This document shows, one piece after another, positions 18,988 to 22,649 of a stretch of DNA of 64,000 nt. The translations under genes and the position numbers were made by a program. The stretch is from NCBI RefSeq assembly GCF_022750545.1, contig NZ_PUIC01000013.1, forward strand, positions 1 through 64,000, in the 5' to 3' direction. The notes under the pieces are model-generated. The model worked only from the letters and a program-made list of their open reading frames with translations. It was not told the DNA's origin and did no database searches. How positions within the stretch are numbered: position 1 is the stretch's first letter; the number at the start of each line of letters is the position of its first letter. The DNA comes from Caulobacter sp. CCUG 60055 (GTDB lineage: Bacteria > Pseudomonadota > Alphaproteobacteria > Caulobacterales > Caulobacteraceae).

Positions 18988-19193
18988 GTCGCATCTTTAC
19001 GCGCCGGGCCGCGGGCCGTCACGCCTGGAAGTCCGCCGTCCCGCCCGCGCCGACCGCGCGGTTTCAGCGCCGAAACACTTCAACTTGACGTGAGGTCGGC
19101 CGATCCCGCAGTGAGGCGGACGCATCGAAGCGGAACCGCCCCTTGTCCCAGACGCGCCGGTCGCCGGCCCTCCTCAAGCCCGAGTCCCAGGAC

Positions 19194-20282
19194 ATGCTGC
19201 GCCTGGACGCGCTGCGCCTGATCGCCGCGCTCGGCGTCGTGGTGTTCCACTTCAACCGCTACCTCGACCTCGACGGGCGCTGGGACGCGGTCAACCACAC
19301 GGTGCGGGCCTTCAACCTGTTCGTCGACCTGTTCTTCGTGGTCTCGGGCTATGTGATCTCGTCGGTCTATGCGACGCGGATCACCTCGCTCGGCGCCTAT
19401 GGCGACTTCCTGCTCAAGCGCGTCGCCCGGCTCGGCCCGCTGCACTGGGCGACCCTGGCCTTCTACGTGGTCCTGGCGGTCCTGGCCTACGCCGGCGACC
19501 CGCGCTTCCACGACCCCGCCCGCTACGACTTCGCCTGCCTCGCCCCCAACCTGCTGCTGGTCCACGCCTGGGGAGCCTGCAACCACCAGACCTTCAACTT
19601 CGTCAGCTGGTCGATCAGCGCCGAGTGGGGACTCTACCTGCTGTTTCCCGCGCTGCTCCTGCTCGTCCGGCGCGGCCCCGTGCTGACGGCCGCCGTCGCG
19701 GCTGCGTGGCTGGCCCTGCTGTTCGCGGCCTCGCTGCTCCCCGGCGCGCGCCATCCCTTCTATGAATGGACGGCCGATTTCGGCCTGCTGCGCGCCGTGC
19801 CCGGCTTCCTGATCGGGATGCTGGCCTTCCGCCTGCGCGCGCGGCTGGCGGCCCTGCCCGCCGCCGGCCCGGTCGGCTGGACCCTGCTGGCGCTGTTCTT
19901 CGTCGGCGCCGCGCTGGGCGCGCACAAGGGGGCGCTGCTGGTCAACCTTTACGCCGCCGCCGTGTTCATCGCCGCCGGGGACGCCTCGGGCCGCCGGCCG
20001 AGCGCGGCGACGCGGGCCCTGGCCCCGTTCGGCCAGCTCACCTATTCGCTCTACATGCTGCATCCGCTGATGCTGTCGATCGGCCTCAACCTGATCGGCG
20101 GCGGGATGCTGCGCCTGACCGGCGACGCCATGCGGCTGTGGGTTCTGGGCTGCATGGTCGTGCTGTTCCCGCTGTCCTACCTGTCGCTGATGCTGTTCGA
20201 GCGCCCGGCGCGCCGCTGGATCTCGACCCTGCGCTGGCGGCCGGCGCCGGGCGCTGCGGCCCCCGCGGCCGGCGAGCCCTAG
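19194..20282 (+). CDS. Membrane acyltransferase, OafA/YrhL (Acyl_transf_3) family
   Basis: A 362-residue membrane enzyme of the acyltransferase-3 family, which O-acylates surface sugars or lipids. About ten hydrophobic helices are visible. Family motifs are LDALRLIAALGVVVFHFNRY at the N terminus (the conserved H in VVFHF), LFFVVSGYVIS, RLGPLHW and the SWSISAEWGLYLLFP segment. ATG 19194 begins directly at the conserved N terminus; a TTG at 19143 in the same frame would add 17 residues. It is divergent from dnaG, and its stop overlaps by four bases the stop of the convergent ACT-domain gene. Confidence 0.88.
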   Translation: MLRLDALRLIAALGVVVFHFNRYLDLDGRWDAVNHTVRAFNLFVDLFFVVSGYVISSVYATRITSLGAYGDFLLKRVARLGPLHWATLAFYVVLAVLAYAGDPRFHDPARYDFACLAPNLLLVHAWGACNHQTFNFVSWSISAEWGLYLLFPALLLLVRRGPVLTAAVAAAWLALLFAASLLPGARHPFYEWTADFGLLRAVPGFLIGMLAFRLRARLAALPAAGPVGWTLLALFFVGAALGAHKGALLVNLYAAAVFIAAGDASGRRPSAATRALAPFGQLTYSLYMLHPLMLSIGLNLIGGGMLRLTGDAMRLWVLGCMVVLFPLSYLSLMLFERPARRWISTLRWRPAPGAAAPAAGEP

Positions 20283-20638
20283 GTCGACGCGGGGCCGCTC
20301 CAGTCGCGCCAGCCCAGGCCGACGCCGCGCACCACCGGCATCCCTTCGAGCAAGCGGGCCAGCCGGTCGGCCAGGGCCGGAGCCACCGCCTCGACCTCGA
20401 TCTGGATGCACACCACCTCGCCCTGGCGGTCGAGGGTGACCCCGCTCAGCCGCACCTGGCGGACCGTGAACGGGCCGAGCACCCGCATCAGGGCGTCCGG
20501 CTCGTCGTGGACGTAGAGGATGAACCAGTAACGGCGTACGGCCGCGCCCGCCTCGTCCGCCGCCGCTCCCTGCGCCGCCCCGACATGCCCCGCCCCCGCG
20601 CCTTGCGCCGCCTGCGCGGCCCCGCTCCCGTCAGCCAC
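20279..20638 (-). CDS. ACT-domain protein, resembling acetolactate synthase small-subunit domain
   Basis: A 119-residue protein. After an Ala/Gly-rich N terminus of about 35 residues comes one ACT-like domain: RYWFILYVHDEPDALMRVLG, VRLSGVTLDRQGEVVCIQIE and LARLLEGMPVVRGVGLGW. The spacing and the hydrophobic pattern resemble IlvN/IlvM regulatory subunits, which bind branched-chain amino acids. No acetolactate synthase large subunit is present nearby. It starts with GTG at 20638 inside the end of the upstream gene (8-base overlap, AAAGGG eight bases upstream), so the two are translationally coupled. Role inferred, substrate unknown. Confidence 0.7.
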   Translation of the reverse strand: MADGSGAAQAAQGAGAGHVGAAQGAAADEAGAAVRRYWFILYVHDEPDALMRVLGPFTVRQVRLSGVTLDRQGEVVCIQIEVEAVAPALADRLARLLEGMPVVRGVGLGWRDWSGPAST

Positions 20639-21008
20639 GACGAAGCCCTTTCACCAGTTCGTGGTCGTCGCGCACCAGCCCGTCGGCGCCGGCGAAATAG
20701 GTCCGGCGCAGCAGCACCCGGCCGTCGCTGTCGAAGGCGCTCAGCCTGAGCACGTCGATGGCGGCCTCGCCGTCCTCGGTGGCCCAGACCAGCTCGCGCT
20801 GCGGCCGCGCCTCGGTCTCGGACGACCAGGCCGCGTCGAGCGCCGCCTCGACGGTGAACAGCTGCTCCAGCGAGCCGCCGGCGAACAGCGTCGCCTCCAG
20901 CCGGGCGGTGTGCTGCATCAGGGATTCGTTGCTCAGCACGCGCGCGAAGCGGCGCGCGGCCACCGCTGGCGCGGGCTGATCGGCGTCTGATCGAGAGGGG
21001 GCGTTCAT
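20631..21008 (-). CDS. Small protein of unknown function behind an attenuator
   Basis: A 125-residue protein that I do not recognise. A polar, Ala-rich first 20 residues are followed by a helix (ARRFARVLSNESLMQHTARL) and a probable alpha/beta domain (ELVWATEDGEAAIDVLRLS, DGRVLLRRTYFAGADG). No signal peptide or membrane segment is present. AAGGA lies ten bases before the ATG. It is the first full gene after a leader peptide and terminator on the same strand, and it overlaps the ACT-domain gene by eight bases. The pair should be made together under attenuation control. Confidence 0.72.
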   Translation of the reverse strand: MNAPSRSDADQPAPAVAARRFARVLSNESLMQHTARLEATLFAGGSLEQLFTVEAALDAAWSSETEARPQRELVWATEDGEAAIDVLRLSAFDSDGRVLLRRTYFAGADGLVRDDHELVKGLRRG

Positions 21009-21056
21009 GGCTTGTGGTCCTTGGCTGGTGAGGGCTGGGACCGGCGAGCGCGCAAC

Positions 21057-21089
21057 AAAAAACCCCGCTGCCTTATCGGGAGCGGGGTT
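21057..21089 (-). terminator. Attenuator (intrinsic terminator in a leader)
   Basis: On the minus strand AACCCCGCT (21089-21081) pairs with AGCGGGGTT (21069-21061), followed by TTTT (21060-21057). It sits 49 bases before the ATG at 21008 and 27 bases after the leader-peptide stop. CGGGG inside the end of the leader-peptide frame (about 21138-21134) could pair with CCCCG of the first terminator arm as an antiterminator. This is the geometry of ribosome-mediated attenuation as in ilvGMEDA and ilvBN of enteric bacteria. Confidence 0.8.
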
Positions 21090-21115
21090 GCTGATCTTGC
21101 GATCGCCGGCGTTTT

Positions 21116-21262
21116 TTAGTGCGCGCGCGGTCGCCCCGTTCCCATGTGGCAGGGGGTAATAATTACGGTTTTGGCGAGCATGAGCGCAGCGCAGGCGGGA
21201 GCGCCACGCGAACCGGCGAGGGTCACGTCGAGGCGGCTGACGAAGGCGAAACGCGATTGCAT
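21116..21262 (-). CDS. Putative attenuator leader peptide rich in Thr/Val/Ile
   Basis: A short frame ends at TAA 21118-21116, just before the attenuator. Its end reads MLAKTVIITPCHMGTGRPRA plus His: a Thr-Val-Ile-Ile-Thr cluster followed by Pro-Cys, then a basic Gly/Arg tail. That resembles the end of the ilvGMEDA leader, which has Val/Ile codons then Pro-Pro-Cys and Gly/Arg. The minimal peptide starts at ATG 21181 (21 residues) but has no Shine-Dalgarno. An in-frame ATG at 21262 (48 residues) has GGGAG about 12 bases upstream. Which start is used is open; the control codons are the same. Confidence 0.55.
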   Translation of the reverse strand: MQSRFAFVSRLDVTLAGSRGAPACAALMLAKTVIITPCHMGTGRPRAH

Positions 21263-21342: not shown

Positions 21343-22215
21343 TCAGACGCCGATATGCCCCAGCTTGTCGGGGTTGCGCACGATGTAGACGCCGCACACA
21401 CGGCCGGCCGCGTCGAGGTCGAAGGCGATGGTCTGCGGCCCGTCCGGATCGGTCATCACCAGGCCGGGCAGGCCGTTGACCCTGGCCGGATGGTACTGGG
21501 CGGTGCGGTAGTAGGCGTACTTGCGCGAGATCCCCGTCAGGAAGCGGATGATCTTGGCCGCGCCGAAGATCGGGTTCAGGGCCGCCGACCGCTTGCCGCC
21601 GCCGTCGGAGATCAGCACGGCGTCGTCGGCCAGCATGGCGGCGAGCTGGCTGGGATCGCCGTCGCGGGCCGCCTGCATGAAGGCCGCCACCATGCGGTCG
21701 GCGTTGGCGCGCTCGACCTCGAAGCGCGGCCGCGCTTCGCGGACATGGGCCTTGGCGCGGGCGGCGAGCTGCCGGCAGGCCGCCTCGCTGCGATCCAGGG
21801 CGGCGGCGATCCGGCCGTAGTCCTGGTCGAAGACCTCGCGCAGCAAAAACACCGCCCGCTCCAGCGGCGACAGCCGCTCCAGCGCGAGCAGGAAGGCCAC
21901 CGACACGTCCTCGGCCCGCTCGTCGGCGCTCTCGGCCGGCGCGGCGCCCGCCGCCTCGACCAGCGGCTCGGGCAGCCAGGCCCCGACATAGACCTCGCGC
22001 CGCGCCCTGGCCGATTTGAGCCGGTCCAGGCACAGCCGCGTCGCCGTGCGCACCAGCCAGGCGGCCGGGTCGGTGATCTGGGCCTGGTCGGTACGCCGCC
22101 AGCGCAGCCAAGCGTCCTGGACCACGTCCTCGGCCTCGGCCACCGAGCCGAGCATGCGGTAGGCCAGGCGGCGCAGCCGCCCGCGCTGGGCCTCGAACGT
22201 CTCGACGTCGTTCAT
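21343..22215 (-). CDS. ECF41-type sigma factor with SnoaL-like C-terminal domain (SigJ-like)
   Basis: A 290-residue extracytoplasmic-function sigma factor. Sigma region 2 (RRLAYRMLGSVAEAEDVVQD) and region 4 (LSPLERAVFLLREVFDQDYG) occupy residues 1-165. A SnoaL-like domain follows, with the ECF41 hallmarks DGGGK (in ISDGGGKRSAALNP) and NPDKL near the C terminus. In ECF41 proteins this extension replaces an anti-sigma factor and modulates core binding. GAGGGAGA precedes the ATG. It lies 35 bases behind a small membrane-protein gene, and a matching ECF41 promoter precedes that gene, so the pair is probably autoregulated. Confidence 0.9.
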   Translation of the reverse strand: MNDVETFEAQRGRLRRLAYRMLGSVAEAEDVVQDAWLRWRRTDQAQITDPAAWLVRTATRLCLDRLKSARARREVYVGAWLPEPLVEAAGAAPAESADERAEDVSVAFLLALERLSPLERAVFLLREVFDQDYGRIAAALDRSEAACRQLAARAKAHVREARPRFEVERANADRMVAAFMQAARDGDPSQLAAMLADDAVLISDGGGKRSAALNPIFGAAKIIRFLTGISRKYAYYRTAQYHPARVNGLPGLVMTDPDGPQTIAFDLDAAGRVCGVYIVRNPDKLGHIGV

Positions 22216-22250
22216 GCGGCGATCTCCCTCGGCGACCATCAAGGACCCTA

Positions 22251-22649
22251 TCAGGCTTCCCGTCCGTTCCGCCTCGGCGGCGCGGCCAGCCAGAGGCTGA
22301 GCAGGGCGGGCAGGAAGACGCCGGGCAGGTCGCGCATCAGGTCGTGCAGGCCGTGATGATGGGCGGCGGCGACCAGATGGATCGCCGCGTGCAGGACCAG
22401 GAAGGCGCTGGCCGCGACCAGGGCCGGCCAGGCCGGGCCGCCCTTCCAGGCGAACCAGGCCAGGCCCAGGGCCGTGACCAGATAGGCCGCGCCGATGTCC
22501 TGGACGAAGTGGGGATTGAACGGCCCGGTCTCGGTCACGCCCGGCACGGCGCCGTACCACCACAGGGACGCAAAAAGCTGGGCCAGGGCGTTGACGCCCA
22601 GCAGCAGGGCCAAAAGGCCGGCGATCGCGCGCTTCAAATCCGCCTCCAT
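22251..22649 (-). CDS. Small four-helix membrane protein, partner of the ECF41 sigma gene
   Basis: A 132-residue integral membrane protein with four hydrophobic segments (about residues 8-30, 50-68, 74-95 and 108-125) and a His-rich loop (AAHHHGLHD). I do not recognise its function. ATG 22649 has AAGGA four bases upstream. A GTG at 22661 would add four residues, but it lies about where transcription should begin from the predicted promoter at 22668-22694. The gene leads a two-gene operon with the ECF41 sigma factor and is the likely output, or a sensor input, of that circuit. Confidence 0.72.
   Translation of the reverse strand: MEADLKRAIAGLLALLLGVNALAQLFASLWWYGAVPGVTETGPFNPHFVQDIGAAYLVTALGLAWFAWKGGPAWPALVAASAFLVLHAAIHLVAAAHHHGLHDLMRDLPGVFLPALLSLWLAAPPRRNGREA

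Follow-up and report, generated by a model that had tools for sequence, protein, structure and literature searches.

An ilv/thr-type attenuator of Caulobacterales probably controls two genes for stand-alone regulatory domains

Introduction

What does an amino-acid attenuator regulate when no biosynthetic enzyme lies behind it? This question is raised by a minus-strand locus in the window, by which we mean the whole 64,000-nucleotide stretch of DNA that was analyzed. A preliminary description, made from the letters alone, reported a leader frame with a Thr-Val-Ile-Ile-Thr cluster, a perfect 9-bp terminator with a T run, and two overlapping small genes of 125 and 119 residues, with no ilv or thr enzyme at the locus. 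Using related genomes, RNA folding, profile comparisons and predicted structures, we arrive at the reading that an ilv/thr-type attenuator of Caulobacterales probably runs a unit of two genes that encode stand-alone regulatory domains.

Anatomy and conservation of the locus

The leader with its cluster, the terminator and the two small genes, which overlap by 8 nt, were all confirmed (Table 1). The leader stop codon is separated from the hairpin by 26 nt, and the CGGGG that had been offered as an antiterminator partner falls exactly at 21138-21134. No ilv or thr enzyme was found downstream of gene 2 in the transcription unit. In the window the next gene, encoding an acyltransferase, is convergent with gene 2, so the unit contains no enzyme; elsewhere the neighbors are variable.

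Table 1. Features of the locus and its immediate surroundings in the window.
Feature	Coordinates	Strand	Description
ECF-type sigma factor-like gene	21343-22300	-	SnoaL-like C-terminal part; ends 80 nt upstream of the leader start
Leader ORF	21116-21262	-	48 codons plus TAA; ATG at 21262, TAA at 21118-21116; MQSRFAFVSRLDVTLAGSRGAPACAALMLAKTVIITPCHMGTGRPRAH
Control codons	21155-21172	-	Inside the leader ORF; AAA ACC GTA ATT ATT ACC, Lys-Thr-Val-Ile-Ile-Thr (KTVIIT)
Region 2, antiterminator 5' arm	21134-21143	-	GGGAACGGGG; within the 3' part of the leader; 9/10 positions pair with 21087-21078
GATC-GCAA-GATC mini-hairpin	21093-21104	-	Between leader stop and terminator; 4 pairs, each kept in 32-34 of 34 sequences; almost invariant between genera
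Region 3, antiterminator 3' arm	21078-21087	-	CCCCGCTCCC; shares bases with the terminator 5' arm
Intrinsic terminator	21057-21089	-	Perfect 9-bp stem, AACCCCGCT (21089-21081) / AGCGGGGTT (21069-21061), and T6 (21062-21057); predicted dG -19.2 kcal/mol; kept at all loci
Gene 1	20631-21008	-	125 aa; stand-alone ASB-like domain, relative of the L-serine dehydratase beta domain
Gene 2	20279-20638	-	119 aa; ACT-fold protein by predicted structure and Foldseek
Acyltransferase gene	19143-20282	+	Convergent with gene 2

Relatives of gene 2 were present in 52 of the 199 sampled genomes of the family. The conservation set comprised 50 homologous loci from about 50 genomes and at least 6 genera; the main relatives are Caulobacter, C. 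vibrioides included, and the sample contains one genome only of the window's genus. At each of the 50 loci, all of them fully read, a leader ORF 39-50 codons long is accompanied by a GC-rich terminator and a pair of small genes that overlap, and the block occurs in the laboratory species C. vibrioides itself. Several Caulobacter genomes carry it with pheT on one side and msrA on the other. Both the leader codons and the terminator are kept at 50/50 loci, so the lack of conservation that the preliminary description had named as grounds for rejection was not observed. The flanking genes, which from their sequences we take to include MATE efflux, MsrA and MFS genes, together with the acyltransferase gene, differ from locus to locus, while the leader remains joined to genes 1 and 2. 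The lack of an enzyme is thus itself conserved, and the block is a conserved unit, not a chance arrangement.

The leader as a decoded sequence

By several measures the leader appears to behave as a coding sequence. Its start and stop positions match between the 50 loci, and the leaders align end to end. Differences between close pairs of leaders number 264, 249 and 492 at codon positions 1, 2 and 3, respectively, the third being the most variable in these non-independent pairs. Isoleucine is encoded by ATT and ATC in a ratio of 97:11 in the leaders versus 22:187 in genes 1 and 2 (Fisher P = 2e-46, a value that overstates independence because the loci have common ancestry). The genes of the window, at 5:83, have the opposite preference to the leaders. 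We infer that the leader is translated and that ribosomes stall on it in vivo.

The last third of the leaders, which holds the control region, consists of 15% Met, 15% Thr, 13.5% Ile and 8% Lys, compared with 2.5%, 5%, 4.2% and 5% in the four window genes that served as baseline. Typical leader tails in relatives are SKTTMMIIITPTIGTGRTRAL and TIMMWNQIKTVPVRTGQRRAR; that of the window is KTVIIT. The set sensed in relatives would be Thr, Ile and Met (with Lys) more than Val. Of the originally suggested Ile, Val and Thr, then, Thr and Ile hold in relatives, Met (Lys) has to be added, and Val belongs to this genome and to paralogous copies. The leader tail had also been likened to that of enteric ilvGMEDA, a resemblance for which the RNA offers the best explanation, since region 2 (ACGGGGC) sits in the stretch coding for Gly and Arg.

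The antiterminator/terminator switch

Computational folding of the leaders predicted the antiterminator at 48/50 loci, the prediction being weak in L030 and L079. The probability of pairing between regions 2 and 3 is 0.82 in the window, versus 0.13 in dinucleotide shuffles. With region 1 masked, its mean is 0.81, again versus 0.13 in shuffles; including region 1 lowers the mean from 0.81 to 0.78, so that a protector 1:2 hairpin competes little. In the alignment of 34 sequences, 84% of the cells in region 2:3 are paired; after sliding, the value drops to 31-60% and is lower at any offset. Covariation in this pairing is modest because the pairing core is invariant.

The classical 1:2 protector hairpin is, by these predictions, weak or absent. 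Some basal read-through without translation is therefore expected, and termination would depend on the ribosome arriving at the leader stop. From the GGGG of region 2 to this stop the distance is about 15 nt in the window versus about 24 nt in some Caulobacter leaders, and in the latter a ribosome that has reached the stop is therefore less certain to occlude region 2. We regard ribosome-mediated attenuation at this locus as very probable, with a response to starvation as its prediction, and the attenuator reading of the preliminary description is supported.

The same scaffold before ilv and thr operons

A covariance model, R1, was made solely from 34 leaders, and its E-values are rough. Across the whole order it matched 81 of 298 genomes and 14 of 48 genera. 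Each of the 20 R1 loci inspected beyond the family is an attenuator, and wherever the leader was resolved its codons match. Behind the scaffold in these other families lie ilvD-ilvC-AHAS at 13/20 loci (leader example LGLLLLVLVLIIPTITG), aspartokinase-thrB-thrC at 4/20 (leader LGTTTMIITTTSW), an ASB gene alone at 2/20 (leader SIIVSIILPTQ) and ilvC-AHAS-ACT at 1/20. Here thrB and thrC were called by motif; aspartokinase, ilvD, ilvC, AHAS and ilvE were named on representatives. The other-family ilvD-ilvC-AHAS and aspartokinase-thrB-thrC loci that share one scaffold fall within L228-L247.

R1 also finds second copies of the scaffold inside the family. Some precede a single ASB-like gene (L155 and L156, leader LLLTVLIT; L157, L161 and L162, by R1 match); in some Caulobacter, an ASB-like gene lies between a Val/Ile attenuator and ilvE (L158-L160, leader AVVIIP). 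Two ACT genes follow at L163 (R1 match), ilvD at L167 and ilvD-ilvC-AHAS at L169-L171 and L174, the ilv leaders being rich in Ile, Leu and Val where found. At L172, aspartokinase-like and homoserine-kinase-like genes stand behind the leader MTTTTP. The ASB-like gene of L157 has an Ile/Leu/Met/Thr leader upstream and an enoyl-CoA hydratase-like gene next to it. The weak R1 matches L165, L166, L168 and L173 resemble ordinary terminators at gene ends and were left out of the count.

The control codons thus track the downstream genes and therefore constitute the strongest support for control based on decoding. Judged by its sequence, the window attenuator is homologous to those of ilv and thr operons and appears to be re-used for an enzyme-less pair. 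More tentatively, a single re-coded scaffold in Caulobacterales may let starvation induce enzymes as well as free-standing modules (ASB-ACT, ACT-ACT and ASB alone) that act in trans.

Domain identity of gene 1 and gene 2

Gene 1 had been described as a protein of unknown family, a label that no longer applies. Its Pfam match, SDH_beta (PF03315), scores 23 bits, below the cut-off of 26 (E = 1e-4), and this family matches at all in 2 of 18 gene 1 members. Foldseek with the AlphaFold2 model (pLDDT 80) returned the L-serine dehydratase beta domain of L. pneumophila, 2iqq, as the best match (7.7e-6), along with 2iaf and 4rqo, and next the ASB domain of M. tuberculosis PHGDH. The gene 1-family profile also picks up the N-terminal domain of true SdaA in Caulobacter genomes, and hhalign of the gene 1 profile with SdaA gave an E-value of 4e-11 and a probability of 97%. 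The HPN motif and substrate loop(s) of SdaA are absent. Scores from sequence and structure, which range from weak to moderate, point to a stand-alone ASB domain. In Caulobacter relatives an ACT-like protein occupies the place of gene 1, with the leader and gene 2 kept; hhalign matched this replacement protein to gene 2 with a probability of 97.4%.

Gene 2 had been taken for an ACT protein resembling acetolactate synthase small subunits. The ACT part of this assignment held: the AlphaFold2 model has a beta-alpha-beta-beta-alpha-beta fold with a core pLDDT of about 97, and its nearest Foldseek matches are the ACT domains of homoserine dehydrogenase, PHGDH and IlvN (5ypp), consistent with membership of the ACT superfamily by fold. 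The likeness to the small subunits is weaker. ACT_5 (PF13710) is the nearest Pfam family, at 16.8 bits under a cut-off of 27, and weak similarity to it was observed in 10 of 28 gene 2 members. No AHAS large subunit adjoins gene 2 at the window locus or at the relatives' loci checked. The ligand loop of gene 2 reads DEPDAL, placing an Asp where ligand-binding ACT domains (NEPGVL) have the Gly of the ligand site, and amino-acid binding is therefore doubtful. Class-wide, relatives of gene 2 occur in 41 of 387 genomes, mostly as stand-alone small ACT genes without a clear leader. Among them, L204-L222 are stand-alone ACT proteins of about 90-120 aa with the motif EPxxLxRVLExFAxRG, scattered in Alphaproteobacteria and again lacking a clear leader.

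Alternative explanations

The pair, an IlvM/IlvN-like ACT protein and a helper, might instead serve as the regulatory subunit of an acetolactate synthase (AHAS) that is encoded elsewhere and unlinked to it. Attenuators of the same scaffold do stand before AHAS operons, and the gene 2 profile aligned with this genome's IlvN (hhalign E 1e-5, probability 81%), in addition to the 5ypp and ACT_5 matches given above. However, ilvBN is present in this genome as a complete operon and has a short attenuator of its own (leader VRTFLIVLRKRPSAA; L068:950-1060), IlvN has no ASB partner, and the Met and Thr codons of most leaders suit the aspartate family better than Val/Leu. Gene 2 is also unlike the small ACT protein that adjoins AHAS in a relative (hhalign probability 5%), and its descent from such a protein, which we considered, was unsupported. 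On balance, a role as an acetolactate synthase subunit is rather unlikely.

A different target would be the synthesis of serine or the dehydration of serine or threonine, through L-serine dehydratase, PHGDH or threonine deaminase, with the pair tying serine to isoleucine supply. Type-1 L-serine dehydratase beta subunits combine an ASB with an ACT domain, as do some PHGDH enzymes. The homology of gene 1 to the L-serine dehydratase ASB domain agrees with this, as do the presence of PHGDH 3dc2 in the Foldseek lists of both gene 1 and gene 2 and the ACT gene before ilvA in a relative. Yet the ACT-like gene 1 of Caulobacter indicates that ASB is not essential to the unit, gene 1 lacks the HPN motif and substrate loops of SdaA, and the leader cluster contains no serine codons. 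A serine-specific leader signal was also considered, and dropped because the leaders lack serine runs. We judge regulation of serine metabolism to be quite improbable.

It is very unlikely that genes 1 and 2 are decaying leftovers, retained solely by drift, of an ilv operon or a serine dehydratase operon. Both are strongly diverged, and neither scores above Pfam cut-offs, but both are open in 50/50 loci, their overlap and residues are conserved, and the swap of the gene 1 partner with gene 2 and the leader retained argues for selection. The strong conservation of the GATC-GCAA-GATC mini-hairpin would fit its being part of an aptamer, in a T-box or a riboswitch that binds a ligand. An Rfam covariance-model search of the element gave no match up to E = 1, though, and the interval between leader and terminator is variable in length and too short for a T-box. 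The control codons shift with the downstream gene, which indicates decoding, and we give a riboswitch or T-box very little credence. Least credible of all, the terminator could simply close the transcript of the sigma factor-like gene, which lies upstream on the same strand and ends at 21343, with the leader ORF a chance frame; this is contradicted by the upstream genes varying between loci while the leader frame, ATT bias, antiterminator and terminator persist, and by the scaffold standing before ilv and thr operons as well.

Discussion

Anatomy, conservation, codon bias, alternative pairing, scaffold homology and domain identities can all be read from the DNA, and they are consistent with the following course of events for an attenuator in front of two regulatory-domain genes. 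With charged Thr, Ile and Val tRNAs (Met, Ile, Thr and Lys in relatives), the ribosome would reach the leader stop and cover region 2, and the 3:4 terminator would then end transcription. With these tRNAs uncharged, the ribosome would stall on AAA-ACC-GTA-ATT-ATT-ACC, region 2 (GGGAACGGGG) would pair with region 3 (CCCCGCTCCC), no terminator would form, and genes 1 and 2 would be expressed. The ASB and ACT products could then form a regulatory complex that tunes an aspartate-family or branched-chain enzyme encoded elsewhere; such an allosteric role in trans is possible, though we propose it with reserve. A lost ACT domain for the pair to replace was sought in this genome's IlvN, IlvA, Hom and LysC, all of which keep their own. 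The pair is therefore not a substitute for a lost domain, and there is no obvious enzyme without a regulator, which weighs against action in trans.

A search for attenuators before the threonine deaminase and ilvE genes of this genome found none. In a relative belonging to another family (L116:1447-3205), an ACT gene lies directly before a long biosynthetic ilvA, with the leader MRMLCVDRISLATIITVPRDGNNAR (ATIITV). No canonical T-run terminator was found at this ACT-ilvA locus, which may be controlled by a different route. The same genome also carries a stand-alone ACT gene behind the leader IASIIIVPAGR (L113). From the relatives that combine ACT with ilvA and ASB with ilvE, we infer a link to isoleucine supply. 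If the proposal is true, allosteric domains would be supplied on demand during aspartate-family and branched-chain amino-acid starvation, which suggests that bacteria can induce allosteric control itself upon amino-acid shortage. The natural series formed by ilv, thr, ilvE, ASB-only, ASB-ACT and ACT-ACT loci lets the evolution of attenuator re-coding be studied.

Both attenuation and the induction of small regulators by tRNA uncharging are already known. Attenuation of Caulobacter ilvBN has been described (Tarleton et al. 1994, as cited in PMC4117421); a description of a leader-ASB-ACT unit was not found in the literature searched, which is not proof of absence. The E. coli thr and ilvGMEDA attenuators have the same leader peptide with runs of sensed codons, the same antiterminator/terminator switch and the same amino acids, whereas the genes behind the window switch encode just two small proteins with regulatory domains and no biosynthetic enzyme, and the 1:2 hairpin of the switch is weak. 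Gene 1 corresponds to the L-serine dehydratase beta (ASB) domain of PF03315, 2iqq, 2iaf and 4rqo by fold and sequence profile, but it is free-standing, without the HPN motif and substrate loops, and has no iron-sulfur alpha domain attached. Gene 2 resembles the AHAS small subunits IlvN and IlvM (ACT_5) in its ACT fold and weak ACT_5 similarity; unlike them, it is not beside AHAS, falls under the family cut-off, has Asp at the ligand-site Gly, and is partnered by an ASB or a second ACT-like protein. In Bacillus subtilis, anti-TRAP (rtpA) is an enzyme-less small regulator made only when a tRNA is uncharged (PMC11255114, PMC4027176). The likeness lies in a small regulatory protein without an enzyme, under the control of tRNA uncharging; in contrast to the window pair, anti-TRAP is governed by a T-box that senses Trp, and, being a zinc protein, it has no relation to ASB or ACT domains and no homology to the pair. 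Attenuation is the textbook control of pathway enzymes, and here a homologous, re-coded switch would drive nothing but regulatory domains similar to portions of enzymes.
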